A DNA stretch of 64,000 nucleotides from Hyphomicrobiales bacterium (GTDB lineage Bacteria; Pseudomonadota; Alphaproteobacteria; Rhizobiales; Rhizobiaceae), in the NCBI GenBank assembly GCA_900469345.1, contig UBWZ01000014.1, forward strand, positions 62,001 to 126,000, in the 5' to 3' direction. Below, in pieces: positions 5,196 through 24,731 of this stretch. How positions within the stretch are numbered: the first letter of the stretch is position 1; each line of letters opens with the position of its first letter. Made by a program: the position numbers and the translations under genes. Below the pieces are notes generated by a model, which was not told the DNA's origin, did no database searches, and saw only the letters and a list, made by a program, of their open reading frames with translations.

Positions 5196-6224
5196 ATGAA
5201 TTCGAACAGACTTTCAAAGACGCTCAGATCCATCGCCCTGGCGGCGATGACCGGCACGGCCCTTCTGGGTTCGTCCATGGCTGCCGTGTCCCAGGAAACA
5301 CCACTGACGTTCTGGCTCAACTATCCAGCCGCCGGCTTCAACGCGGGTTACGAACTGGCCGTGAAGAACGGCTACTACAAGGCTGCAGGCCTAGATGTGA
5401 AAATCGAACCCGGCAACGGTTCGCAGATCACCGCCCAGCTGATTGCCAGCGGCAAGGCAGACATCGGCTTTGCGGATTCCGCACCGGTGATGAAGCTCAT
5501 TTCCGACGGCGCAAAGATCAAGATCCTGGCAACCATTCTGCAGGGCAACCCGAACCAGATCACTGCGCTGAAGGGCAAAGGGATCGCTTCGGTGAAGGAT
5601 CTCAAGGGCAAGTCGGTCGCAATCCCGAATGGTGGTTCTCAGGCTGCCATGTTCCCGCTGGTGCTGGCGGCAAACGGTCTGACTGCAAGTGACATCCAGC
5701 AGGTCAACATGCCCAAGGAGTCGATGGTTGCGGCTCTCCTGCAGGGCCGGGTCGATGCCATCCTCGGCTCTATCGACTTCTTCGCGATCCAGCTGAAGGA
5801 TCTCGGCGCCGAGACGACCGACTTCCCATTCATCGACAATGGCGCGCCCACCGTTTCGACATCGATCGTCGCTTCGGAAAGCTACCTTGCCAAGAACCCG
5901 GACCAGGCGAAGGCCTTCGTGGCTGCCAGCCTCAAGGGCTGGTACGCGGCCATCGACGACCCCAAGGCAGCTGTCGCCGCGATGAAGGAAATGTTCCCCG
6001 ACGCATCCGAAGAGCAGGCTCCTGCGCAGCTCGAAGCGACGAAGTACCTGATGTGCGTCAACCGTGCCAAGTTCGTCGGCAAGGCGACACCGGAACAATG
6101 GGCCGACACCGTGAGCATTCTTGGAAAAATCGGAATGCTGCCCGCCGGCAAGGAAGCCACGACCTACTACACCTATGACTACCTTCCGCCGGAATCCGAC
6201 CTTCGCCCCTGCCCCCTGACCTAA
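5196..6224 (+). CDS. ABC transporter substrate-binding protein, NMT1/THI5 family
   Basis: A 342-residue periplasmic solute-binding protein. Residues 1 to about 33 form a signal peptide (positive start, ALAAMTGTALLGSSMAA core, cleavage near VSQ-ETP). The mature part shows the family pattern: LNYPAAGFNAGYELAVKNGYY, GSQITAQLIASGKADIGFADS, and SVKDLKGKSVAIPNGGS. It is preceded by AAGGAGGAGAAG, a strong ribosome binding site. The ligand is unknown; the neighbouring SDR, AroE-like and FAH enzymes suggest a hydroxylated cyclic or aromatic acid, which is inference. Confidence 0.93.
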   Translation: MNSNRLSKTLRSIALAAMTGTALLGSSMAAVSQETPLTFWLNYPAAGFNAGYELAVKNGYYKAAGLDVKIEPGNGSQITAQLIASGKADIGFADSAPVMKLISDGAKIKILATILQGNPNQITALKGKGIASVKDLKGKSVAIPNGGSQAAMFPLVLAANGLTASDIQQVNMPKESMVAALLQGRVDAILGSIDFFAIQLKDLGAETTDFPFIDNGAPTVSTSIVASESYLAKNPDQAKAFVAASLKGWYAAIDDPKAAVAAMKEMFPDASEEQAPAQLEATKYLMCVNRAKFVGKATPEQWADTVSILGKIGMLPAGKEATTYYTYDYLPPESDLRPCPLT

Positions 6225-6227
6225 GAG

Positions 6228-7043
6228 ATGAAGCTGTCCGCCATGCAAGCATTACAGACAACAACCCCAAGCAGCGACCTCAGCGGTGTCAGGATCGAGA
6301 TCGAGGAAGTCGGGAAAAAGTTTGGCGCCTTCGAAGCGCTCCGACCGACGACGATCGACATCAAGCCCGGTGAATTCGTTTCCGTCGTGGGGCCCAGCGG
6401 TTGCGGGAAAAGCACGCTGATGCTGATGGTGGCCGGCCTCATGGATGCGTCGAACGGGAAGATCCGTGTCGACGGGAAACCCCTGTCCGGCGCGTTGACG
6501 GACGTCGGGATCGCCTTCCAGGACCACCTTCTGCTCGAGTTCCGAACAGCCATGGATAACGTCCTTCTGCAGGGCGTTATCCGGGGCCTGCCTCTGGCTC
6601 CGGTCCGGAAGCGTGCAGAGGAACTCTTCGAGCGGCTCGGCCTGACGAAGGCGGCGAACCGATATCCCAGCCAGCTTTCCGGCGGCATGCGCCAGCGCGT
6701 ATCACTGGCGCGAGCCCTTGTGTTGAAGCCATCCGTCCTTCTCATGGACGAGCCGTTCGGCGCGCTGGACGCGCTGACCCGTGTGCAGGTTCGCCACGAT
6801 CTCGAACAGCTCTGGATGGCTGAACGTCCGACCGTTCTCTTCATCACCCACAGCGTCGAAGAAGCGGTTGGTCTGGGCGACCGCGTTCTCGTCATGGCGC
6901 CATCGCCCGGTCATGTCGTGGACGAAATCCAGATCGACCTTCCCCGCCCACGCCCGGTATCGCTCGGAGAGGAGCCGGAACTGTCGGCGTTTTCCAAGCG
7001 CATCTACGATCACTTCGCGCGCCTCGGGGTTATTCATAGATAA
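6228..7043 (+). CDS. ABC transporter ATP-binding protein, SsuB/TauB-like
   Basis: A 271-residue ATPase that powers the adjacent permease. Walker [10 protein letters not shown] is near 54-62, the Q-loop reads AFQDHLLL, the signature is LSGGMRQR, Walker B is VLLMDEPFGALD, and the switch His is in ITHS. It starts 3 bases after the binding-protein stop; an alternative ATG is at 6243. It ends the operon, and a perfect inverted repeat lies 57 bases downstream. Confidence 0.93.
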   Translation: MKLSAMQALQTTTPSSDLSGVRIEIEEVGKKFGAFEALRPTTIDIKPGEFVSVVGPSGCGKSTLMLMVAGLMDASNGKIRVDGKPLSGALTDVGIAFQDHLLLEFRTAMDNVLLQGVIRGLPLAPVRKRAEELFERLGLTKAANRYPSQLSGGMRQRVSLARALVLKPSVLLMDEPFGALDALTRVQVRHDLEQLWMAERPTVLFITHSVEEAVGLGDRVLVMAPSPGHVVDEIQIDLPRPRPVSLGEEPELSAFSKRIYDHFARLGVIHR

Positions 7044-11111: not shown

Positions 11112-11882
11112 CTAGCTGCGGAAAGCCTGAAGCATCTGCATGCCGGCCTTGCGGATGAACCCCTGATCGGACGAGAGAATGAAGGCTGTCGCGCCCATGG
11201 CGGCAAAACTATCGCCTTCCTCACGCGCGCCGGTCATCACCATCACCGGCTTGCCGACCGCCTTGGCTGCCGTGGTGACCCTTTCAACCGCAGACGTCAA
11301 TTCGGCAGACGAGGAGCTCTTGGCATTGAGTGCCAGCGTCAAGTCGCCGCGACCGACAAAAAAGCCATCGATACCATCGACGGCGACGATTGCATCGATC
11401 TCTTCCAGTGCGGAAGGATCCTCGATCATGGCGATCGTTGTGACCCTGCGGTCGCTTCGGTTGATATAAGGCCAGAGGACGTCGCCGCCGTAGCGGCCGG
11501 ACCGTCCCGAGGGAGAATAACCGCGTGTCCCATTCCGGTAGCGCGATGCTGCGGCGACCGACTTCGCCTTGGCGACATTCGCCACATGCGGAACAAGAAT
11601 GCCGTCCGCGCCGCAATCCAGCGCGCTCAGGATCGTCGCCTCCGAAGAGACGCGCACCAGCGCTGCGGTTGCCGCCGCTCTTGCCGCCAGCACGGCGACA
11701 TCGATCGTGGCCCGATCGAATGGCGCATGCTCCTCGTCGATGACGACGAAGTCGAAGCCGATATCGCCGAGGATTTCCACTGAATGGGAGGTCGGCGTCT
11801 TGATGAAGCTTCCGAGCAGGCGCTCGCCAGCCAGCAGGCGCTGGCGAAAGGTCAAGCGGCTCGGTTCGATAATGTCACTCAT
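11112..11882 (-). CDS. HpcH/HpaI-family aldolase
   Basis: A 256-residue class II pyruvate-type aldolase that would cleave a 4-hydroxy-2-oxo acid to pyruvate and an aldehyde. Visible landmarks are GSFIKTPTSHSVEILGDIGF, VVIDEEHAPFD, the GADGILVPHV strand, MIEDPSALEEI with the metal-binding Glu, and VGRGDLTLAL with the Asp. Its start overlaps the end of the MFS gene by 8 bases, so the two were co-transcribed. It appears intact although several neighbours are broken. Confidence 0.9.
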   Translation of the reverse strand: MSDIIEPSRLTFRQRLLAGERLLGSFIKTPTSHSVEILGDIGFDFVVIDEEHAPFDRATIDVAVLAARAAATAALVRVSSEATILSALDCGADGILVPHVANVAKAKSVAAASRYRNGTRGYSPSGRSGRYGGDVLWPYINRSDRRVTTIAMIEDPSALEEIDAIVAVDGIDGFFVGRGDLTLALNAKSSSSAELTSAVERVTTAAKAVGKPVMVMTGAREEGDSFAAMGATAFILSSDQGFIRKAGMQMLQAFRS

Positions 11883-12839
11883 GATCCAGTCTCACGATTC
11901 CATGAACATTGGTGCGGCTATCGGTGTCGGGCGTACCGCGACGCATTGATGCCCAGCGCAAAGCTGCGATGATGAACAGAAGGCCAGCGCAGGCGGCGGG
12001 GACAATCATCGCGCCGACGGCCGTTCCGGTCATCTGTGCGACGGACGGCATCAGGTTCTGGGCGATGAAGCCGCCGACAAGGCCGATCGTGTTGATCACC
12101 GCTATGCTGGTCGCGCTCCGTGCGCCTTGGAAGAGCCTCGAGGGAAAGTACCAGAAGCACGGAAACAAGATCGAGATACATGGCGCGCCGATGGCGAGCG
12201 CCACAAAACGGAGAAGATTGGTGTTGAGCTGAGTTGCGGCCACGAAGGACAGAACGCCGATCAGGGTGATGATCAGTGCTGCCTTGACGATTTTCCTTTC
12301 CGTCTGCAGCCGCCGCGGCAGGATGAGCAGCAGCGCCGCGGCGATTGCCCAGAGCACGGCGTTCAGCAGGCCATTCTGTGTCCCGGTGACACCAAATCCT
12401 TTGATCACCGTCGGAAGCCAATAGATCACGCCGAACAACGAGATGTTGATGAGGATGTAGACGAGCGACATGACCAGCACGGTCGGATCGATCAACGCCC
12501 GCAGCGGGTTGGCATGATGGCTGGGGGCGAGAAGGCGAGTAGGATTGTCAGCAAACCCCAGGTCAGGGCAATTCGTGCAAACCATAGCCGGGCGCCGAAA
12601 CGAAACGCGGCAAGCGCGCTCGGCACCTCGACCAGGACATAGCTCAGGAAGAACAGCGACGATCCCAAAGCGAAGCCAGCTTCCGACAGATGCAGTTCGT
12701 CAAGCATCTGCAACTTGGCAAAGCCGACATTGGAGCGATCGATGATCGCGCAAAGATAAAGTCCGATCACCATCGGCATGATCCGCCAGGATAGGCGACT
12801 TATGACGTCGGTCTCGTCGATTGATTTTGTTATTGGCAT
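11875..12839 (-). pseudogene. MFS transporter (tartrate/phthalate-type) with an internal deletion
   Basis: The first 106 or so residues (from 12839) give helices 1 to about 3 with IDRSNVGFAKLQML, typical of the anion:cation symporter group. Near 12520 the frame runs into unrelated residues and a stop. A second frame from about 12525 continues at HHANPLRALIDP, the central loop, and then the C-terminal six helices to 11875. Together they make about 325 residues where the family has about 430, so roughly 100 residues (helices 4-6 and part of the loop) are gone and the frame is shifted. It cannot make a working carrier. Confidence 0.85.
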
Positions 12840-12945
12840 TGTGCCCTCCCTTGCACGTGACCGTGCATCTCCGAAAACCGTTGTTGCAAATTCCTTTCCC
12901 GCGCGTCATGACTATTCCCTGACGTTCCGCCTGGTGGAATTTAAT

Positions 12946-13703
12946 ATGAGCGATCAGCCGGTTGAATCGGTGCTTCGAGCCTTCGAGATCCTTCGCGAGC
13001 TGAATCGCAGCCGGGTGACCTCGGTCAAGGATCTGCTTGCGGCGACCGGCTTGCCGAAAGCGACCCTGGTGCGTCTGCTGAAGACTCTCGGCTGGGCCGG
13101 CTATGTGACGAACGACCGGCGGCAAGGCGGCTATCAGGTCACGTCGAACGTCAAGGCCTTGAGCTGCGGCTACCATCGCGACCCGCTCGTGGTCGAGGCC
13201 GCCCGCCCCTGGTCGATTGAATTCACGCGGAAATATCAATGGCCGATCGCCGTTGCCACGCTGGAAGAGCGGACGGTCGCCGTGCGGTTCAGCACGATTA
13301 TTGACAGCCCGAATTCGCCTTTCCACGGGACGATCAACCTTCGTCTCGACCTTCTGACGCGGGCGCTCGGGCGCGCCTATCTGGCATTTTGTCCGGCGGC
13401 GGAAAGGGACATGCTTCTGGATCTTCTTGGCGTCGGGGATGCTGTCCGCCGCCAGGATGCGCTCGACATGCTGGGCCGCATTCGCAAGGCGGGATTTTCG
13501 AGCCACGCTCATCGAATACCATCGCCATGCCGGTCATGCTGGGCGAGAAGGTGCTGGCAACGGTTGGCGTCACCTATTTCAAGTCGGCCTATTCGGTGGA
13601 GCAGGCGGTCGCGAAATTCCGCGAACCGCTTCACGACCTATCACAGCGGATCGCCAGTGGCTGCGGCCAGCTGCACGACGACTTTCATTCGGAACAGCAA
13701 TAG
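12946..13703 (+). pseudogene. IclR-family regulator with a frameshift
   Basis: The start MSDQPVESVLRAFEILREL and the winged-helix region (VTSVKDLLAATGLPKATLVR) are normal for IclR repressors. The effector domain continues to GRIRKAGF near 13500, where the frame breaks. The conserved end (SSNTIAMPVMLGEKVLATVG ... QLHDDFHSEQQ) is in another frame and stops at 13703. A few residues are also missing at the junction. It is divergent from the MFS pseudogene, whose operon it presumably once controlled. Confidence 0.85.
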
Positions 13704-13747
13704 GCGCCCCGGGACGATAGTTCCTGGGCACCCTTAGCGTTTGAATG

Positions 13748-15916: not shown

Positions 15917-16804
15917 TCAGGAATTCAGCTCGATACGATCTTCTGTTTCAGCATCAAACAGGTTGATGCTGAGCGGATCGACATCGAAGGCCACCGGGTC
16001 GCCCCGTCGGCCCTGGAACCGTGGCTCTGCCCGGGTCCCGACCGAATGATCCCCGACCCTTAACGTCACCATCGTATCCGGGCCGGTCAGTTCGACCACA
16101 TTAATCACGCCCTTCATCGGCGCGTTGTCAGCACCGGACACTTTCAGCTCCTCGGGCCGAACGCCCAGCATACAGTCTCTGGCACGCGAAGCTTCCCTGG
16201 ACACATGTGCCGGACCGCTGACGACTTCGCTCTCGAAGCGTGATCCGTCGGTGGCGCTCATAGATAGTCCGGGGATAGGCAAGCTGCTGGACATAGCCGC
16301 CCTTCATCACGGCGACCTTGGTCGCCAGCGTCATCGCCTCAATCTGATCGTGCGTGGCGTAGATGATGGTTGTGCCAAGCCGCTCATGCAGCCGCTTGAT
16401 CTCGGTCCGCATTTCAACGCGAAGCTTTGCGTCCAGATTGGACAGCGGTTCGTCAAACAGGAACAGATCGGGACTGCGCGCGATGGCGCCCCATGGCGAC
16501 ACGTTGCCTCTGCCCGCCGGAAAGATTGGCCGGAAGGCGCTGAAGCAGATGGTCGATCTGCAGCATTTCCGCCGCCTTTCGAACCTCTGCCTTACGTTGC
16601 TGCTCAGGAACGCCGCGCATCTCCAGGCCGAACCCAATGTTCCGTTCGACGGTCATCGTCGGATAGAGGCCCTAGGACTGAAACACCATCGCGATATTCC
16701 GGTCCTTCGGCGGAAGCGCCGCCACCGAGCGATCCGCAATCGAGATATCGCCCGTGGAGGGCTCGTCGAGGCCTGCGATGATGTTGAGAAGGGTCGTTGC
16801 GTGC
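15917..16804 (-). pseudogene. Sugar ABC transporter ATPase (UgpC/MalK-like), multiply broken
   Basis: Pieces of a MalK-type ATPase occur in changing frames: TTLLNIIAGLDEPSTGDIS, DRNIAMVFQS followed by a TAG at 16672-16674, then [34 protein letters not shown], a frameshift near 16490, [20 protein letters not shown], another shift near 16270, and the C-terminal TOBE region [12 protein letters not shown] to the stop. The Walker A segment is absent. The gene is clearly dead; an intact homologue lies at 27362-28432. Confidence 0.88.
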
Positions 16805-17240
16805 TAGGGGCAGAGTAATGCGCACCATCGCGCCCAGCCGCGTCGATCCGTCGATGCGGGCAGCGTTTTCCAGCTCTTATGTGCCGCATCAGAGAGGCCT
16901 TCAGCATCCAGACAAACAACGGAAATAGGAAACTCGTGTAGGCAAGCGCCAGACCGAAACGGCTGTCGATTAGGCCTACGGTCCGCATCATCACGAACAG
17001 CGGAATGATGATCATGAGGGCCGGAAACATCCGCACCAGCGGCTGTAGCCTTGGCTATAAGGCGAAAGTAACGGGAAGCGCTGTGGCATGCGTCGCTGAT
17101 ACCAGTCTGTCCAACAGTAAATTGCGCACTGACAACCCAAAGACCTCTCAGCACCTCTTCGTCGAACCGTGGCCGCGGTTGCGAGCCTGTGGCTGCGTGC
17201 AAGAAGGCGCGCTCCAGGCAAGAAGTGAACCTCGTCGAAT
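16805..17240 (-). pseudogene. Remnant of a sugar ABC permease fused by deletion to the ATPase remnant
   Basis: MIIIPLFVMMRTVGLIDSRF and LAYTSFLFPLFVWMLKASL are transmembrane parts of a MalG-type permease; the EAA region ENAARIDGSTRLGAMVRITL follows in a shifted frame. At about 16805 the permease stops abruptly and the ATPase begins in the middle of its Walker A helix, so one deletion removed the permease end and the ATPase start. Upstream of 17037 only faint traces remain. Confidence 0.8.
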
Positions 17241-17246
17241 ATGCGT

Positions 17247-18443
17247 TCAATCGAAAAAGCCCTGATCCTCCGCCGAGAGATACGCTCTCGCACGCTCTTC
17301 GATAAAGGTGACGCCCATGCCGGGCCGGTCGGGAACCTCGACCATTCCGTCGATCACGATCGGCTTAGGCAGGCCTTCGACGATGTCAGACCACCAGGCG
17401 GGATCGGCCGTCGTGTACTCGAAGGCAATGAAATTGGCAGGCAGCGTCGCCGAGACCTGGATCAACGCAGCGAGGCCGAAAAGCCCGTTTGCCGTGCCAT
17501 GCGGCGCCATCATGATGCCGTGCAGATCCGCATATTCGGCAATCCATTTCAGCTCGGCGATGCCGCCGACATCGGCGGGATCGGGACCGACCACATGCAC
17601 CGCATGGCTCTCGATCAACTCCTTGAAATTCTGCCGGAGATAAATCTGCTCGCCCGTATGGATGGGGGTGGTGGAACATCGGGTCAGCTCGCGGTAGACA
17701 CCGGCGTTGACCCAGGGCGTGTAGTCTCCGGAAAGCAGGTCTTCCAGCCAGAGCAGGTTGAAGGGTTCGAGCATGCGGCACAGCCGGATCGCATCCGGCA
17801 GCATCCATCCAGGCCCGCAATCCAGCGCAAGGCCGACCTGATCGCCGGCGACCTCCTTCATGGCCGCCACGCAATCCACGAAGTGCCGCAGGCCCTTTTC
17901 GGTGATCGGCCCGCGGTCCAGCGCTCCATGGAAGGGGCTTGCACTCGGCTCCCCGTAATAGAAATTCGTCACCTCCCGCTTCATCGCGGAATGAAACCCG
18001 ATCGGCTGCTTGATGATGGTAAAACCCTCCGACAGCGCCATCATCTTGGCGATATCCTCCGCATAATCCTGCGGCTCATGGCCGGTAAAGGGAAACCGCA
18101 TCGAACCGTTGTAGACGCGCACGCGATCGCGCACCTTGCCCCCCAGTAGCCGATGCACCGGCACGCCCGCCGCCTTGCCGGCCAGATCCCAGAGAGCCAT
18201 CTCGATGACGCTGACGGCGCTCCCCCAGGGCTTGAAGCCGCCGCGCTGGCGGATCTTCAGCATGACACGCTCCACAAGCGTCGGATCCTCGCCGATCAGC
18301 GCATTGCGAAAGGCAAGGATATGCGGCTTCAGATAGGGTTTCCAGGTTTCCGCCTGGGAAAAGCCGGAAATCCCCTCGTCCGATAGAATCTGCACGACCG
18401 GGCTCTTGCCGATCACGGCACATCTGACGTCAACGATCTTCAT
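17247..18443 (-). CDS. Enolase-superfamily sugar-acid dehydratase (mandelate racemase-like group)
   Basis: A 398-residue protein with an enolase-like N-terminal cap and a TIM barrel. Likely metal ligands are Asp208 (LALDCGPG), Glu234 (LWLEDLL) and Glu265 (HTGEQIYLR), with a catalytic His315 in APHGTAN. Such enzymes remove water from aldonic acids after proton abstraction. The second ligand region differs from the usual DANG, so the exact sugar acid is unknown. It follows the IclR gene on the same strand by 21 bases and is followed by transporter wreckage. It differs from the dehydratase at 21046 and probably acts on a related acid. Confidence 0.88.
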   Translation of the reverse strand: MKIVDVRCAVIGKSPVVQILSDEGISGFSQAETWKPYLKPHILAFRNALIGEDPTLVERVMLKIRQRGGFKPWGSAVSVIEMALWDLAGKAAGVPVHRLLGGKVRDRVRVYNGSMRFPFTGHEPQDYAEDIAKMMALSEGFTIIKQPIGFHSAMKREVTNFYYGEPSASPFHGALDRGPITEKGLRHFVDCVAAMKEVAGDQVGLALDCGPGWMLPDAIRLCRMLEPFNLLWLEDLLSGDYTPWVNAGVYRELTRCSTTPIHTGEQIYLRQNFKELIESHAVHVVGPDPADVGGIAELKWIAEYADLHGIMMAPHGTANGLFGLAALIQVSATLPANFIAFEYTTADPAWWSDIVEGLPKPIVIDGMVEVPDRPGMGVTFIEERARAYLSAEDQGFFD

Positions 18444-18464
18444 GGCTGTTCCTCAGCGGCTGGG

Positions 18465-19247
18465 TCAAACGGGAATGGCGGCGCTGATGGCCTTGGCGGT
18501 TGCGAGCGCCGCAAGTCGGATCTCCTCCATCCGGCCGGGAGCCGTGCCGGCCAGAAAGGGCACGCTCAGCGCTGCGATCATCTTGCCCGTCTGGGTGAAG
18601 ATGGGCGTGGCATAGGCCTGGATGCTGGGCGCGTTCTCGCCCTTGTCCTGCGCCCAGCCGAGGCGACGGATGCGGGCAAGCTCGCTGCGCAGCCGCTTGG
18701 GATCAGTCAGCGTCTTCGGGGTAAAACCTTTCAGCGGACGCGACATCTGGTAGGCGAGATCCTCTTCGGAAAGATGCGCGAGCAGCAGCTTGCTGGCCGC
18801 CCCCGCATGGATCGGCATTCTCTGGCCGGGCGCTACCGTCAGCGCATATTCGCGTCGGCCCTGTGCCGTCGCCAGCACCAGCACGCCGTCCTGGTCGAGA
18901 ATGCTGAGCTTCACGCCCTCGCCCAGATCCCCCGCAAGCTTGTCGAGGAACGGCTGACTGATCGCCGCCAGATCGTAGTCCGTGGCGCGCACACCCACAT
19001 GGGCAGCCAGCGCAAGCAGCCTGCGGCCCAGGTGATATGCGCCGTTCTCGTCGCGGTAGACGACCTGATGCTGCTGGAGCGAGTTGACGATGCGGTAGAT
19101 CGTGGTCCGGGGAAGCTTGAGCGCGCTCGTCAGATCGCTGATCGTCAGCCCCTTGTCCGTCTTCTCGATCTCCCCGAGCACGTCCATCAAGCGGTCGATC
19201 ACGGGAATGGTATGCTTGCTCACGCCTTCGTCAACGATTTCGCTCAT
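18465..19247 (-). CDS. IclR-family transcriptional regulator
   Basis: A 260-residue regulator. The winged helix (LTISDLTSALKLPRTTIYRI) is near residues 30-50 and the GAF-like effector domain contains LSILDQDGVLVLATAQG, PIHAGAASKLLLAHL and the end SIQAYATPIF. The ATG at 19247 has AGGAAGG upstream; an in-frame start at 19307 would add 20 residues that do not look protein-like and would cover the operator motifs. It is divergent from the VOC-to-dehydratase operon. Paired TTCATATCTGAA-like motifs at its promoter recur before the UxuA/ABC operon, which suggests that it controls the whole locus. Confidence 0.92.
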   Translation of the reverse strand: MSEIVDEGVSKHTIPVIDRLMDVLGEIEKTDKGLTISDLTSALKLPRTTIYRIVNSLQQHQVVYRDENGAYHLGRRLLALAAHVGVRATDYDLAAISQPFLDKLAGDLGEGVKLSILDQDGVLVLATAQGRREYALTVAPGQRMPIHAGAASKLLLAHLSEEDLAYQMSRPLKGFTPKTLTDPKRLRSELARIRRLGWAQDKGENAPSIQAYATPIFTQTGKMIAALSVPFLAGTAPGRMEEIRLAALATAKAISAAIPV

Positions 19248-19288
19248 CCCCAACCTTCCTGTTGACAATCCCTGCTTCGGTATTAGCA

Positions 19289-19321
19289 TACATATCTGAA
19301 CTGTCAAAGTTCATATCTGAA
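19289..19321. promoter_or_regulatory. Paired IclR operator candidate in the divergent promoter
   Basis: Two copies, TACATATCTGAA (19289-19300) and TTCATATCTGAA (19310-19321), have starts exactly 21 bases apart, two turns of the helix, in the same orientation. The second copy is nearly self-complementary at its ends. The pair begins 42 bases upstream of the IclR start. The same arrangement occurs at 22270-22302. Confidence 0.65.
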
Positions 19322-19469
19322 TAATTTATGGAGGGAGTTGTTTGGATATCGCTCGGAGGAGCACTCGTGACCCTTGTCTGTGCCCGGCTGCCGGCCCATC
19401 CGGCAGCTGCGCGCGTGGCGTACCACCCATGCCTCCCGATCTGTCTGGCACACCGAGAGGAGTTCCCAA

Positions 19470-19901
19470 ATGCTGACCGTTTCCTCGATTGCCCATGTCG
19501 CAATCCGCGTCAAAGACATCGACCGCACACTTGCCTTCTACATCGGTAAGCTCGGCTTTAGCGAGTTGATGCGGCTCGACCGCGATGGACGGCTCTGGCT
19601 CGTCTATCTGCGCATCACCGACGATCAATACCTGGAGATTTTCCCCGAGTCAGAGGGCGAGAACGTTCCAGGTCCGGAAGCGCTTGGCTACAACCACATG
19701 TGCCTCGCCGTGCCGGATATCGAACAGACGGTGCGCGAACTGGAAGTCGCGGGCATCGCTCTGATCCGGCCGAAGATCAAGGCGCTGGACGGCAACTGGC
19801 AGACCTGGATCGCCGATCCGGACGGCCACCGCATCGAACTCATGCAGATGGCGCCGGACGGCATGCAGGCCCAGGCGATCGCACGCCGGAACGGACACTG
19901 A
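19470..19901 (+). CDS. VOC (glyoxalase/bleomycin-resistance fold) protein
   Basis: A 143-residue metal-dependent VOC protein. It has the two-repeat pattern [20 protein letters not shown] and [18 protein letters not shown], with likely metal ligands His9, Glu (LEIF), His (YNHM) and Glu (RIELMQM). It ends with [13 protein letters not shown]. The ATG at 19470 is preceded by GAGAGGAG. The next gene starts 2 bases after its stop, so it is the first gene of this operon. It could be an isomerase or a glyoxalase-type detoxifier. Confidence 0.9.
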
Positions 19902-19903
19902 TC

Positions 19904-21031
19904 ATGGCGCGGATCACCTATCTGACGACCATCGACTTCGGGCCGGGTGAGCTCAAGCAATTGCAAAACGCGATTGCCGAGCTGAAGCTTGCCCGACCGC
20001 TGCTGATCTCCGACCGTGGGCTTGCCGCCTCGGGCCTGGCGGAACGGGTCCGCGCGATGCTTCCGGAAGGGACTGCTACCTTTCTCGACACGCCCTCCAA
20101 TCCGACCGAGCAAGCGGTGCAGGATGCCCTTGCCCTTTACCTTGCGCACGACTGCGACGGCATTGTCGCGCTGGGCGGCGGCTCGCCCATCGATCTCGCC
20201 AAGGGCGTGGCGCTGCTGGCTACCCATGATGGCCCGCTGGAAACCCATGCCGCGATCTATGGCGGCGTCGACCGCATCACCGCCGCCGTCGCACCCGTCA
20301 TTGCCGTTCCCACCACGGCCGGGACCGGGGCAGAGGTCGGCCGCGCCGCCCTGCTGACGCTTCAGGATGGCCGCAAGCTGGGCTTCATAAGCCCCCACCT
20401 CATACCGCGGCGCGCCATCTGCGATCCGCTTCTGACGCTCGGACTGCCCCCAGGGCTTACCGCCGCAACCGGGCTTGATGGCCTGTCCCACTGCATCGAA
20501 ACCCTTCTTTCGCCCCGCTTCAACCCACCCGCCGAAGCGATTGCACTCGACGGAGCGGGACGCATCTGGCGCAACCTGCTTAGGAGCTTTGAGACCCCCG
20601 ATGATATCGAGGCGCGCACCGAAGTGATGATGGGCGCGCTGCAAGGCGGCCTTGCCTTCCAGAAGGGACTGGGCGCTGTGCATTCGCTGAGCCATGCGCT
20701 GGGTGGCCTGAAAGAGCCGCGCCTGCACCACGGAACGCTGAACGCCATCCTGATGCCCATCGTCCTGCGCTTCAACACGCCGGCCTCGGTCGACAAGTTT
20801 GCGCGGCTGCGCGCCGCCATGGGGCTTGCGCCGGACGCCGATCTTTCAGGAGAGCTGGACAAGCTGAACCGACGGCTCGGCATTCCGGCCGGCCTCGCAG
20901 CCCTTGGCGTCACCCCCGACTGCTTCGATTACGTGATCGAGCGGGCGCTCGCCGACCATAGCCACGCCACCAATCCCGTTCCGCCGTCCGGGCAGGAGTA
21001 TCGCGCGATGCTCCAGGAAGCCCTGGCCTGA
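19904..21031 (+). CDS. Iron-containing (type III) alcohol dehydrogenase
   Basis: A 375-residue group III alcohol dehydrogenase. [11 protein letters not shown] and [10 protein letters not shown] form the NAD(P) site; the iron ligands are expected in [23 protein letters not shown] and [12 protein letters not shown]. It probably oxidises or reduces a hydroxy or aldehyde group of the sugar substrate or of its cleavage product. It starts 2 bases after the VOC gene and is followed at 14 bases by a dehydratase. Confidence 0.93.
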
Positions 21032-21045
21032 AGGAAAGACTGTCC

Positions 21046-22245
21046 ATGAAAATCACTGCCCTCAAAACCTTCGTCGCCAATGTCCAGCGCACCAACTTCG
21101 TCTTCGTGAAACTCTATACGGATGACGGAATAGACGGGGTCGGCGAAGCCACGCTGGAATGGAAGACCAAGACGATTGTTGCGGCGCTGGAGGAGCTCGA
21201 GCGCGTCCTCATCGGTCGCGATCCCTTCGCGGTTGACGCCATCATCGAACAACTGCACCGGGATAGCTACTGGCGCACCGGCGCGGTCTTTCGCACCGCC
21301 CTGGGCGGCATCGAGGCTGCCCTGCTCGACATCAAGGGCAAGGCGCTTGGCGTACCGGTCTATGAGCTTCTCGGCGGCAAGTTCCGTGACCGCGTGGAAT
21401 GCTACGCCAATCACTGGTTCTTCGGCGCAACGACGCCCGAGCAATATGCAGCCCAGGCGAAGGCGGCGGTCGCCATGGGTTACCGGGCGCTGAAATGGGA
21501 CCCCTTCGATACCGCGGATCTGGAGATGGATCGCCGGCAGCGGCGCCAGACCATCGAGATCGTGGAGGCCGTCCGCGATGCCGTGGGGCCGGATATCAAC
21601 CTCATGCTCGACGTACACGGCAGGCTGAACGTGCCGACCGCGATTGCCATGTGCCGGGCGCTCGCCCCTTACGACCTGACCTGGATCGAGGAGCCGACAC
21701 CGCCTGAAAGCATCGACGCGCTCGCCGAAGTCCGGGCGGCAAGCCCCGTGCCGATCGCCGCCGGCGAGCGCTGGTACGAGCCGGGCAAGTTTCTCGAGGC
21801 CCTGTCCAAGAAGTCGGTCGATGTGCTGCAGCCGGACGTCTCCCACGCCGGCGGGCTTTCGGAAACCAAGCGGATCGCCCACCTCGCCCACATGCACCTC
21901 ATTCCGGTCGCACCCCACAACCCCGTCGGCCCGGTGATGAACGCGATGACGCTGCATGCGGCGGTCGCCATGCCGAACTTCTCGGTCTTCGAGACCGTGT
22001 CGATCGACGTTCCCTGGCGCCGGGAGCTGGTGCGGGAAACCCTGCAGTTCGAAAACGGCGCAATCCTGGCGCCGACGGCACCGGGTCTTGGGGTGGAGCT
22101 GAACGAGGAAGCCTGCGCCCGCTTCCCCTATGAAGCGACCAATGTGCCGCTCTTTGATGGATCGATGAACACCAGCGGCGTCGCGACCGGCGAGCAGACA
22201 CTCTCGGGCGACGGCAATGACAGCAGTCCCGGCCAAGACCGTTGA
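21046..22245 (+). CDS. Enolase-superfamily dehydratase, D-galactonate dehydratase-like
   Basis: A 399-residue sugar-acid dehydratase. Barrel residues match the galactonate dehydratase pattern: Asp189 and His191 (MLDVHGR), Glu215 (WIEEP), Glu241 (AAGERWY) and His291 (APHNPVGP), plus Lys150 in ALKWDPF. It would convert an aldonic acid to the 2-keto-3-deoxy acid. The substrate could be galactonate or another acid with the same configuration at C2 and C3. The last 25 residues are hydrophilic and probably disordered. It closes the first transcription unit; a new promoter region follows. Confidence 0.93.
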   Translation: MKITALKTFVANVQRTNFVFVKLYTDDGIDGVGEATLEWKTKTIVAALEELERVLIGRDPFAVDAIIEQLHRDSYWRTGAVFRTALGGIEAALLDIKGKALGVPVYELLGGKFRDRVECYANHWFFGATTPEQYAAQAKAAVAMGYRALKWDPFDTADLEMDRRQRRQTIEIVEAVRDAVGPDINLMLDVHGRLNVPTAIAMCRALAPYDLTWIEEPTPPESIDALAEVRAASPVPIAAGERWYEPGKFLEALSKKSVDVLQPDVSHAGGLSETKRIAHLAHMHLIPVAPHNPVGPVMNAMTLHAAVAMPNFSVFETVSIDVPWRRELVRETLQFENGAILAPTAPGLGVELNEEACARFPYEATNVPLFDGSMNTSGVATGEQTLSGDGNDSSPGQDR

Positions 22246-22269
22246 CAGAAGCCGGCCCAGGCAACATAG

Positions 22270-22311
22270 TTATATTTAGAACAGATAGTATTCATATTTG
22301 AACTATCTGTT
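22270..22311. promoter_or_regulatory. Paired IclR operator candidate before the UxuA/ABC operon
   Basis: TTATATTTAGAA (22270-22281) and TTCATATTTGAA (22291-22302) have starts 21 bases apart, the same spacing and near-identical sequence as the pair at 19289-19321. A perfect inverted repeat AACAGATAG (22280-22288) and CTATCTGTT (22303-22311) encloses the second copy. The site ends 23 bases before the GTG start of the next gene. Confidence 0.65.
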
Positions 22312-22334
22312 TGCGGCGAACGGAGGATTGCTGC

Positions 22335-23465
22335 GTGAGGATTGGACTGTCCCTTTACGGCCCGCTGCTGAGCGAGGCAGGCGCACGCTTCGCCAGCCAG
22401 CTGGGCGTTGAGGACATCGTCGTTCACCTGACCGATTACACGCGCAACGCAGATGCTTCCGCCTATGCAGCCGGCGGCGTCGGCCCCATTAACGGCGAGT
22501 GCATCGATGCGCCGCTCTGGAGCTTCGAGCACATGGCATCCCTCGTTGAGATGTTCGGGCGCCACGGCCTGCGGATCGCGGCGCTGGAAAACATCTCGCC
22601 CAATTTCTGGTCCGACATCCTGCTCGACGGTCCGAAAAAGCAGGTGCAGATGCGCGATTTGCAGCAGCTGGTGCGCGACATGGGGCGCGCCGGCATCCCT
22701 GTGCTCGGCTATAACTTCTCGATCGCCGGCGTCTGGGGATGGCAACGCAAGAAGATTGCCCGCGGCGGCGCTGTGACCGCGGCCTTCGCCATGGACGAGA
22801 TAGAGGCGCAGACCCCGGTGCCCGACGGCATGGTCGGCAACATGCGCTATCGTCTCGCGGTAACGGGCGCCCAGCCGCAAACGGTTGACGACGCCACCTT
22901 GTGGTCGCGGCTCGAATGGTTCTTGCAGGAATTGGTGCCCGTTGCCGAGGAAGCCGGCGTTCGGCTGGCAGCGCATCCGGACGACCCGCCGGTCGAGCGC
23001 CTGCGGGGAACAGCGCGCCTCGTCAACGAACACGCCAAATACGACCGGCTACTCTCGATCGTCGACAGCCCTTCCAATGCACTCGAGTTTTGCATCGGGT
23101 CGCTGGCTGAAATGCCCGATGGAGACATCTATGAGACGACCCGCCGCTTCGCCCGAGCCAAGACCATTGCTTATGTGCATTTCCGCAACGTCCGCGGAAC
23201 GGTGCCGAACTACATCGAAACCTTCGTGGATGATGGCGACGTGGACATGGGCAGGATCCTGCGCATCCTCAAGGAGGAGGGTTACGACGGGGTTCTGGTG
23301 CCGGACCATGTGCCGGAGCTTGACTGCTTAGAACCCTGGCACGCCGGTCATGCCTATACGGTCGGCTACATGAAAGGCCTTCTTGCCCAGGAGAACCGCG
23401 CCAACGCGCGGGCCCCGCTTCATCAAGACGTTGAGGCACGAGCATCGAAGGTGTCCGCACGATAG
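22335..23465 (+). CDS. uxuA: Mannonate dehydratase-like protein (UxuA family)
   Basis: A 376-residue TIM-barrel enzyme related to D-mannonate dehydratase, which forms 2-keto-3-deoxygluconate. Family landmarks are IVVHLTDY, NISPNFW, GYNFSIAGVWGW, LAAHPDDPP, SIVDSPSNALEFCIGS, YVHFRNVRG and VPDHVPEL. Its length is slightly below the usual 390. The GTG at 22335 is chosen because GGAGG lies 8 bases upstream and the protein then starts MRIGLSLYG; a TTG at 22311 would sit inside the operator. The presence of two enolase-type dehydratases as well suggests several epimeric acids converge here, or that one dehydratase has another role. Confidence 0.88.
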   Translation: MRIGLSLYGPLLSEAGARFASQLGVEDIVVHLTDYTRNADASAYAAGGVGPINGECIDAPLWSFEHMASLVEMFGRHGLRIAALENISPNFWSDILLDGPKKQVQMRDLQQLVRDMGRAGIPVLGYNFSIAGVWGWQRKKIARGGAVTAAFAMDEIEAQTPVPDGMVGNMRYRLAVTGAQPQTVDDATLWSRLEWFLQELVPVAEEAGVRLAAHPDDPPVERLRGTARLVNEHAKYDRLLSIVDSPSNALEFCIGSLAEMPDGDIYETTRRFARAKTIAYVHFRNVRGTVPNYIETFVDDGDVDMGRILRILKEEGYDGVLVPDHVPELDCLEPWHAGHAYTVGYMKGLLAQENRANARAPLHQDVEARASKVSAR

Positions 23466-23519
23466 ATCGGAACTGGCCGCAAGGCCTGGGAAATGCAGCA
23501 AGAACTCTGGGAGGAGATC

Positions 23520-24731
23520 ATGAAAACGATGACGATTAAATTGGCAATGGCCGCGACGGCATCCTTTCTCGCCATGTCGGCAAGTGCATGGGCGGGCCAG
23601 GTGGTCTGGTGGACGCCGAATTTCAACGAGGCCCGGGCCCGCCAGCTGGTAGAGACATTCCAGGCGGCCAATCCGGGTGTGACGGTCAAGCTGGAGACGA
23701 CCACGACGGACGGCCTTCCCCAGCGCATCCTGACGGCGCTGCAATCAGGCGCTGCTCCCGACGTGATCGACGTGCAGCACGCCTGGGTGAACGGATACGC
23801 CCAGAACAAGCTGGTCGTTCCGCTGGACGAGGCGGTGACAGAACGCGAGGACTACATCCCCGCCGCCCTCCAGTACAACACCTGGAACGGCAAGCTCTGG
23901 GGCGCACCCTACCGGATCGAGACCCACGCGATCATCATCAACCGCGGAGACTTCAAGGCGGTCGGCCTTGACCCGGACAAGCCGCCGCAGACCTGGGAAG
24001 CCTTTGCCGACGCGGCCAAGAAGCTGACAGTCAACGGCAAGTCCGGTTTCGCCATCACCGGCGGCGGCGAAGTCGGTAACACCATCTTCCGTTCGCTCCC
24101 CTTCATGTGGATGCTGGGCGGCGGGATCATCTCCGACGACGGCAAGAAGGTGCTGGTGGACAGCCCGGAATCGGAGAAGGCCGTCACCTTCTATACGGAC
24201 TTCTTCAAGAACCACCTCTCGCCGTCCTCGACCCTTGAAAATGACGGCACCGCCAACCGCCGTCTGTTCATCGCCGAGAAGGTTTCGATGTACCAATCGG
24301 GCCAGTTCGACATCCAGTCGATCCGCAAGGAAAACCCGAAGATCGACATCGGCGTCATTCCCGTTCCGCATCCGGAAGGGGCAAAGACAGCCGTAATCCT
24401 GGGTGGCTGGAGCCTAGTGGTTCCAAGCTCTGCCAAGAACCCGGATGAGGCGAAGAAGCTCGTTGCCTTCCTGTCCAAATCGGAAAACCAGGCAATTCTG
24501 ACCGATACCTTCCCGGCCCGGATCTCGGCCATGAACGCCGAGCGGTTCAACGATCCGATCCTCAAGGTCTTCAAGGACATGCTTCCGTTTGGGCGGCCGG
24601 TACCGGCCCACCCGAACTGGGTGCAGATCTCCCAGGCCTATTTCGACGGAATTCAGCGCATCCTGCTCGGCGACGAGAGCGTGAAGGATGCCATGGATGG
24701 CGCCGCCTCTGAAATCGAAGGGCTCCTCTAA
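23520..24731 (+). CDS. ABC sugar transporter substrate-binding protein (MalE/UgpB-like)
   Basis: A 403-residue periplasmic protein of solute-binding family 1. A signal peptide occupies residues 1 to about 26 (MKTMTIKLAMAATASFLAMS, cleavage after WAG or ASA). The mature protein shows WWTPNFNEARARQLVETFQA, QSGAAPDVIDVQHAW, and NGKLWGAPYRIET. The ATG at 23520 follows GGGAGGAG; a start at 23493 is possible but weaker. A strong hairpin follows the stop, before the permease gene, as often seen when the binding protein is made in excess. Confidence 0.94.
   Translation: MKTMTIKLAMAATASFLAMSASAWAGQVVWWTPNFNEARARQLVETFQAANPGVTVKLETTTTDGLPQRILTALQSGAAPDVIDVQHAWVNGYAQNKLVVPLDEAVTEREDYIPAALQYNTWNGKLWGAPYRIETHAIIINRGDFKAVGLDPDKPPQTWEAFADAAKKLTVNGKSGFAITGGGEVGNTIFRSLPFMWMLGGGIISDDGKKVLVDSPESEKAVTFYTDFFKNHLSPSSTLENDGTANRRLFIAEKVSMYQSGQFDIQSIRKENPKIDIGVIPVPHPEGAKTAVILGGWSLVVPSSAKNPDEAKKLVAFLSKSENQAILTDTFPARISAMNAERFNDPILKVFKDMLPFGRPVPAHPNWVQISQAYFDGIQRILLGDESVKDAMDGAASEIEGLL

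Follow-up and report, generated by a model that had tools for sequence, protein, structure and literature searches.

What controls a set of genes, probably for sugar-acid breakdown, in a 64,000-nucleotide stretch of a Hyphomicrobiales genome (contig UBWZ01000014.1, positions 62,001 to 126,000; hereafter the window, meaning the whole stretch analyzed), and do the similar motif pairs at two promoters of this locus belong to the IclR-family regulator encoded beside them? Judging from sequence comparison, both sites are very probably operators of the regulator encoded at 18465-19247, which would bind them and repress three transcripts, including its own. This is the best explanation because a composite site is kept at both promoters and accompanies this regulator through many genera.

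A composite site at both promoters

A preliminary description of the window had assigned one motif pair to each promoter, and the positions, shared orientation, and 21-base spacing that it gave for both pairs match the window sequence exactly. The four 12-mers were read directly in the window.

19289-19300: upstream 12-mer of pair 1, TACATATCTGAA
19310-19321: downstream 12-mer of pair 1, TTCATATCTGAA
22270-22281: upstream 12-mer of pair 2, TTATATTTAGAA
22291-22302: downstream 12-mer of pair 2, TTCATATTTGAA

The description had also credited the pairs with the same core, which is generous for TTATATTTAGAA: counted by hand, it differs from TTCATATCTGAA at 6 of 12 positions, and it falls outside the list of 12-mer matches with ≤3 mismatches. 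At that threshold single 12-mers occur in the window at chance level (29 found, 27.8 expected). The signal resides in the composite unit, which is far above chance, and not in the individual 12-mers. Relatives rule out a pair of two equal 12-mers, the 5' half of the upstream 12-mer being weakly conserved at the iclR promoter, and show three to four half-sites instead. The unit refined from them has three alternating half-sites, roughly TGAAC-N7-GTTCA-N4-TGRAY, with a weaker fourth, outer half-site that is often present. Its two copies, hereafter operators 1 and 2, and the regulator gene are located as follows.

18465..19247, minus strand: IclR-family regulator, 260 aa; Pfam PF01614 (IclR_C) 125.7 bits and PF09339 (HTH_IclR) 37.4 bits; ATG checked
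19297..19322, plus strand: candidate operator 1; box A TGAAC 19297-19301, box B GTTCA 19309-19313, box C TGAAT 19318-19322
19288-19292: weak outer box of operator 1, ATACA
22278..22303, plus strand: candidate operator 2; box A AGAAC 22278-22282, box B ATTCA 22290-22294, box C TGAAC 22299-22303
22269-22273: outer box of operator 2, GTTAT

The protein has the N-terminal helix-turn-helix (HTH) and the C-terminal effector domain of the IclR family, both above the Pfam gathering scores. Boxes A, B, and C, which define a three-box site, are recognizable in the 22 type-1 (iclR/VOC) and 24 type-2 (mostly uxuA/ABC) sites that were chosen for comparison at ≤2 mismatches.

The unit is rare. A profile made from 34 distinct sites of relatives, with the window and its near-twin L002 left out, scored 36.7 at operator 1 and 32.1 at operator 2; the overlapping reverse readings of the two scored 21.8 and 15.7, and the next independent places in the 64 kb only 3.5 each. 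In 100 second-order Markov windows the best score had a mean of 5.7 and reached 20.2 at the highest. A composite search pattern, shaped on the window and the relatives together, matched the 4.9-Mb genome of the same organism with 0-1 mismatch at operators 1 and 2 only (0 and 1 mismatch), which lie 3 kb apart, and the single 2-mismatch match is operator 1 read on the opposite strand. At ≤3 mismatches the genome held 14 matches in total, compared with 3 for a backward-pattern control; eleven of the 14 have 3 mismatches, one of them being operator 2 on the opposite strand. A chance origin of the sites is ruled out by this rarity and by the profile scores relative to the Markov windows.

Conservation beside the regulator gene

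Scanning genome contigs with the IclR protein gave 15 loci (L002-L016; identity 64-100%) from two Rhizobiales, Rhizobium, Pseudorhizobium, Phyllobacterium, Mesorhizobium, Chelativorans, Pelagibacterium, Arsenicitalea, four Devosia, and two Aureimonas. These loci were searched at ≤2 mismatches with a three-box pattern that had been shaped on the same sequences. Operator 1 was present at 0 mismatches between iclR and the VOC gene in 15 of 15, and operator 2 at ≤1 mismatch in 14 of the 14 that reach far enough, L007 ending too early. Where no uxuA match occurs at that place (L009, L010, L012, L014, and L015), operator 2 lies upstream of the ABC binding-protein gene. Conservation in relatives was a check set beforehand, and its outcome, with the motif beside every iclR orthologue and before uxuA or the ABC operon, supports the likely IclR operator of the preliminary description, as does the way in which the motif tracks the IclR gene across genomes.

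Other loci vary the arrangement. L105 has two sites (1 and 0 mismatches), as does L112 (2 and 0 mismatches); L106-L109 have two sites within one gap, before an rraA homologue, and L110 has a single site common to iclR and uxuA. The shared site of L110 and the double sites of L106-L109 indicate that the sites persist through rearrangement. An extra 2-mismatch match in L109 lies between two transporter gene sets. In L117 and L118 the IclR protein is only 38-40% identical and is encoded beside a UxuA homologue, and four boxes are found, GTTCA-N4-AGAAC-N7-GTTCA-N4-TGAAC. Another distant IclR gene, divergent from a UxuA homologue (both confirmed by Pfam), has the same operator motif (L090, 684-2543).

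Co-occurrence was counted in two genome samples, with the motif scored as present when the pattern matched at ≤1 mismatch. The order sample comprised 297 genomes, 10 of them with an IclR orthologue at E ≤ 1e-60; the motif was found in 20, namely 8 of the 10 with the orthologue versus 12 of the 287 without. For the family sample (346 genomes) the counts were 7 of 8 versus 21 of 338. The corresponding Fisher p values, 4e-9 and 8e-8, ignore relatedness, and the samples overlap, the window's genome and some relatives being in both. The 0-mismatch matches of the family sample (G000, G373, G515, G554, and G602) are all 50-70 bp from the iclR match, as are those of G000 and G222 in the order sample; in the latter sample G115, which is without an IclR orthologue, has a 0-mismatch match that is not near iclR. 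Of the 12 order-sample genomes that have the motif but no orthologue, two (G175 and G219) carry the distant IclR-UxuA pair of L117 and L118. The longest open frame over matches away from the IclR gene was tried as a coding test and proved uninformative: long open frames (77 to 648 aa) run over the matches next to the IclR gene as well in these genomes, so the length cannot tell coding from intergenic matches. By eye, some non-cognate matches look like one conserved coding sequence (L039, L047, L050, L064, and perhaps L085).

Placement at the promoters and mode of control

A promoter scan of 18400-23600 returned three sigma-70-like sites versus 0.9 expected. Two are TTGACA promoters, one per operator, with the -10 element ending 7 bases upstream of box A, and the third falls within iclR. 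The predicted promoters are these.

19262..19289, plus strand: VOC operon promoter, TTGACA, 16 nt, TAGCAT, 7 bases before box A (consensus scan)
22242..22270, plus strand: uxuA/ABC operon promoter, TTGACA, 17 nt, CATAGT, 7 bases before box A (consensus scan)
19280..19307, minus strand: proposed iclR promoter, TTGACA-16-TAATAC, -35 between boxes A and B (read by eye)

The TTGACA of the uxuA/ABC promoter overlaps the stop codon of the preceding gene. The proposed iclR promoter is missing from the consensus scan, whose rule demands T at the last -10 position; with its -35 element falling in the spacer that separates box A from box B, operator 1 covers transcription both ways. The distances recur in relatives: among 16 sequences, the window being one, TTGAC stands 35 nt upstream of box A of operator 1 in 15 and 37 nt upstream in the remaining one, and for operator 2 the distance is 36-37 nt in the 10 relatives where TTGAC was listed at a real site. 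Probable autoregulation of iclR, as originally suggested, is supported by the site between iclR and its divergent neighbor and by the proposed iclR promoter read across it. The regulon proposed at the same time is amended in its extent, from two operons to three transcripts: the sites would serve iclR with the second dehydratase gene, the VOC/iron-containing alcohol dehydrogenase (Fe-ADH)/dehydratase genes, and the uxuA/ABC operon, with operon borders and start sites as predicted here.

We propose that an IclR tetramer would bind each site as a dimer of dimers, its two halves on the same face of the DNA and separated by two helical turns, and that the bound protein, lying just downstream of the -10 element, would block RNA polymerase. 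Occupancy of operator 1 would block the VOC operon and iclR itself at once, occupancy of operator 2 would block the uxuA/ABC operon, and a sugar-acid intermediate would probably act as inducer and release the protein. Repression is inferred because the sites sit downstream of the -10 element.

PcaU- and PobR-type members of the IclR family, when bound by inducer, help polymerase. The family as a whole contains repressors, activators, and dual regulators (survey of Suvorova and Gelfand 2021, PMC8222616), and the best-scoring solved relative of the window's protein is a Pca-regulon regulator (8eju, E 6.8e-20). These points favor binding of IclR to the same sites as an activator or with a dual role, its inducer-bound form helping polymerase. 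We regard this as unlikely: the sites begin 7 bases after the proposed -10 element and should extend into the transcribed leader, a blocking position if the predicted promoters are correct, and a full TTGACA -35 element at both promoters leaves no obvious need for an activator. Another regulator, for example of MarR or GntR type or encoded by the second IclR-like gene near 12.9-13.7 kb, might bind instead, with IclR a mere neighbor; a similar tandem palindrome around TGAAC-N7-GTTCA does lie between MarR-family and alpha/beta-hydrolase genes in L041 (1490-1540; genome G287, without an IclR orthologue). We give this little credence, since the rare motif follows the present IclR gene from genome to genome and through rearrangements, the second IclR-like gene has only the HTH domain in its frame and continues in another, and the 4.8 kb of L002 beyond its second dehydratase gene shows no resemblance to the part of the window that carries this second IclR-like gene. 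That the similarity is one of conserved promoter elements and chance A+T-rich palindromes, with no operator, is scarcely tenable: the 5' half of each upstream 12-mer does overlap or adjoin the -10 region, and the single 12-mers are at chance level, but boxes A, B, and C are situated beyond the promoter, on its downstream side, and some of their columns are the same in every one of the 22 and of the 24 aligned sites; the A-B spacer and the bases beyond C vary.

Several observations count against repression by this IclR protein from these operators. Repression is preferred over activation solely from the position of the sites. By eye, the consensuses GKTYCRYW3-4RYGRAMC and TGRAACAN1-2TGTTYCA given in the survey (PMC8222616) are not matched letter for letter. 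The MarR-family neighbor in the unrelated locus L041 means that the motif alone names no protein family. In L015 iclR matches in two overlapping pieces in different frames (6001-6779, turned locus), so that the gene may be frameshifted or broken there despite both sites being kept. L111 has a weak site only (profile score 23.4). Near iclR of L115 and L116 (IclR 46% identity) the unit is absent and only an altered TCCCAAATATGAAC palindrome is kept; L115 has a 2-mismatch match before its second dehydratase gene. Among genomes with an orthologue, G374 (family sample) showed no motif match, and G183 (order sample) showed none at 1 mismatch, its gene being at a contig end; the match of G510 (family sample) is on another contig, beside the different IclR gene of L090.

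Comparison with known IclR-family sites

Three-box sites are known in 32 orthologous groups of the family, including PcaU, PobR, and HmgR, and tandem palindromic sites 18-22 nt apart in 94 of 181 groups; the latter fit tetramer binding, for which the TtgV structure paper is cited, and the former have been proposed to permit two dimer modes (PMC8222616). Like published three-box sites, those described here consist of three half-sites of alternating direction, with roughly two helical turns between the outer ones, and they lie close to an IclR gene and to one or two adjacent operons. Their positions, between iclR and VOC and ahead of either uxuA or the ABC operon, fit the control of their own gene plus one or two adjacent operons that is usual for IclR-family regulators. 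The spacing is different: N4 and N7 separate 5-base boxes (GTT-8-AAC), whereas the consensuses in the survey are GTT-11-AAC and TGRAACA-N1-2-TGTTYCA. It lies within the variety of the single published examples, such as IphR GTCTCATCAGAC with an extra half-site (PMC8222616, Table 1). By its boxes, the putative operator is a spacing variant of the three-box IclR site and no letter-perfect member. As in published tandem sites, the palindrome centers are 21 nt apart at both places, and the tandem form is clearest in L117 and L118 and also at the uxuA promoter, where GTTA replaces GTTCA. Unlike in those sites (PMC8222616), the upstream palindrome has a degenerate outer half at the iclR promoter, reading ATACA in 5 of 22 sites and a mixture of sequences in the others; most relatives have a weak upstream palindrome at operator 1.

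The window's IclR protein matches TtgV (2XRN, 2XRO) over residues 14-246 with E 3.6e-19; TtgV controls efflux pumps, unlike the regulator of the sugar-acid locus considered here. We know of no DNA complex of the window's protein, and no paper on this regulator appeared among the listings that searches of an open-access library gave. Three-box and tandem sites are already known; what is new is the probable operator of this regulator, traced through many related bacteria.

The best-kept dyad differs between promoter types

The compared sites include related genera in both sets, and the type-2 set also contains the single shared sites of L110, L117, and L118 and the sites before rraA of L106-L109. 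Of the 22 type-1 sites, 21 have exactly TGAAC as box A, 21 have exactly GTTCA as box B, and only 2 have TGAAC as box C (TGGAT in 9, TGAAT in 5, the window among them, TGGAC in 4, and others in 2). At type-2 promoters box A is TGAAC in 0 of 24 (AGAAC in 14, AGAAT in 7, others in 3), box B is GTTCA in 19 of 24, and 22 of 24 have TGAAC as box C. When the window and L002 are left out, exact boxes A, B, and C number 19, 19, and 2 of 20 for type 1 and 0, 19, and 20 of 22 for type 2. The best-kept dyad is A-B at the type-1 promoter and B-C at the type-2 promoter, a difference that fits the alternative-dimer proposal of PMC8222616. One regulator may use one three-box operator in two dimer registers, with the promoter choosing the register, a suggestion that we offer tentatively as the less probable side of the question; other limits on the leader or promoter could lie behind the difference.

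Genes of the locus

The remaining genes are listed below.

17247..18443, minus strand: second enolase-superfamily dehydratase, Pfam PF13378 147.6 bits, 21 bp behind iclR
19470..19901, plus strand: VOC/glyoxalase-family protein, first gene of the divergent operon, Pfam PF00903 60.4 bits
19904..21031, plus strand: Fe-ADH, NCBIfam 4-hydroxybutyrate dehydrogenase model, 568.4 bits (cut-off 500)
21046..22245, plus strand: enolase-superfamily dehydratase, galactonate dehydratase-like, NCBIfam 313.5 bits (cut-off 311)
22335..23465, plus strand: UxuA-family (mannonate dehydratase-like) protein, GTG start, Pfam PF03786 180.1 bits
23520..30539, plus strand: rest of operon 2, with ABC sugar transporter, aldo/keto reductase, SDR, RraA-like, and HbpS-like genes (open reading frames and Pfam)

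The second dehydratase gene adjoins iclR in 15 of 15 loci and is probably co-transcribed with it. The UxuA-family protein misses the curated NCBIfam mannonate dehydratase cut-offs (141 versus 191 bits and 109.4 versus 199.55 bits). A 9-bp inverted repeat (22280-22288 with 22303-22311) surrounds box B-C of operator 2, and the uxuA leader could form a stem; by eye, its arms are altered in L002, so the repeat is not kept there. The transporter of operon 2 comprises a binding protein, two permeases, and a MalK-like ATPase; the binding protein and permeases keep the same order in relatives where these are reached, and later genes vary. Fe-ADH is fragmentary in L003 (7442-7867, with the locus oriented to place iclR on the minus strand), and L005, L008, L011, L012, and L014 show no match to it in the interval from VOC to the dehydratase gene; the gene seems dispensable.

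Remnants of another ABC sugar transporter follow the second dehydratase gene (15917-17293, minus strand); the ATPase part matches the intact one of operon 2 in two pieces in different frames (16242-16797) and thus looks broken. The similarity of L002 to the window (94.7% over 7.6 kb) ends at 17246, the end of the second dehydratase gene, which suggests a rearrangement or insertion border. The second IclR-like gene (12778-13737, plus strand) has the HTH domain alone in this frame, the remainder apparently being in another, and may be a pseudogene; the MFS-like gene beside it (11875-12839, minus strand) also appears split.

Implications

The design of this two-operator locus is ordinary for the IclR family. 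The analysis supplies a candidate operator and a small putative regulon for an IclR regulator of Rhizobium-like bacteria, Devosia, Aureimonas, and relatives. Two dehydratases, an ABC transporter, a UxuA-like protein, and several oxidoreductases are thereby joined in one putative catabolic unit, whose substrate can now be sought. If the two dimer registers were true, one protein could set the strength or the order of induction differently at each promoter, a natural test of the alternative-dimer idea proposed for the family. Because the promoters differ so consistently, the locus is a simple system in which to ask whether IclR proteins dimerize on DNA in two ways.

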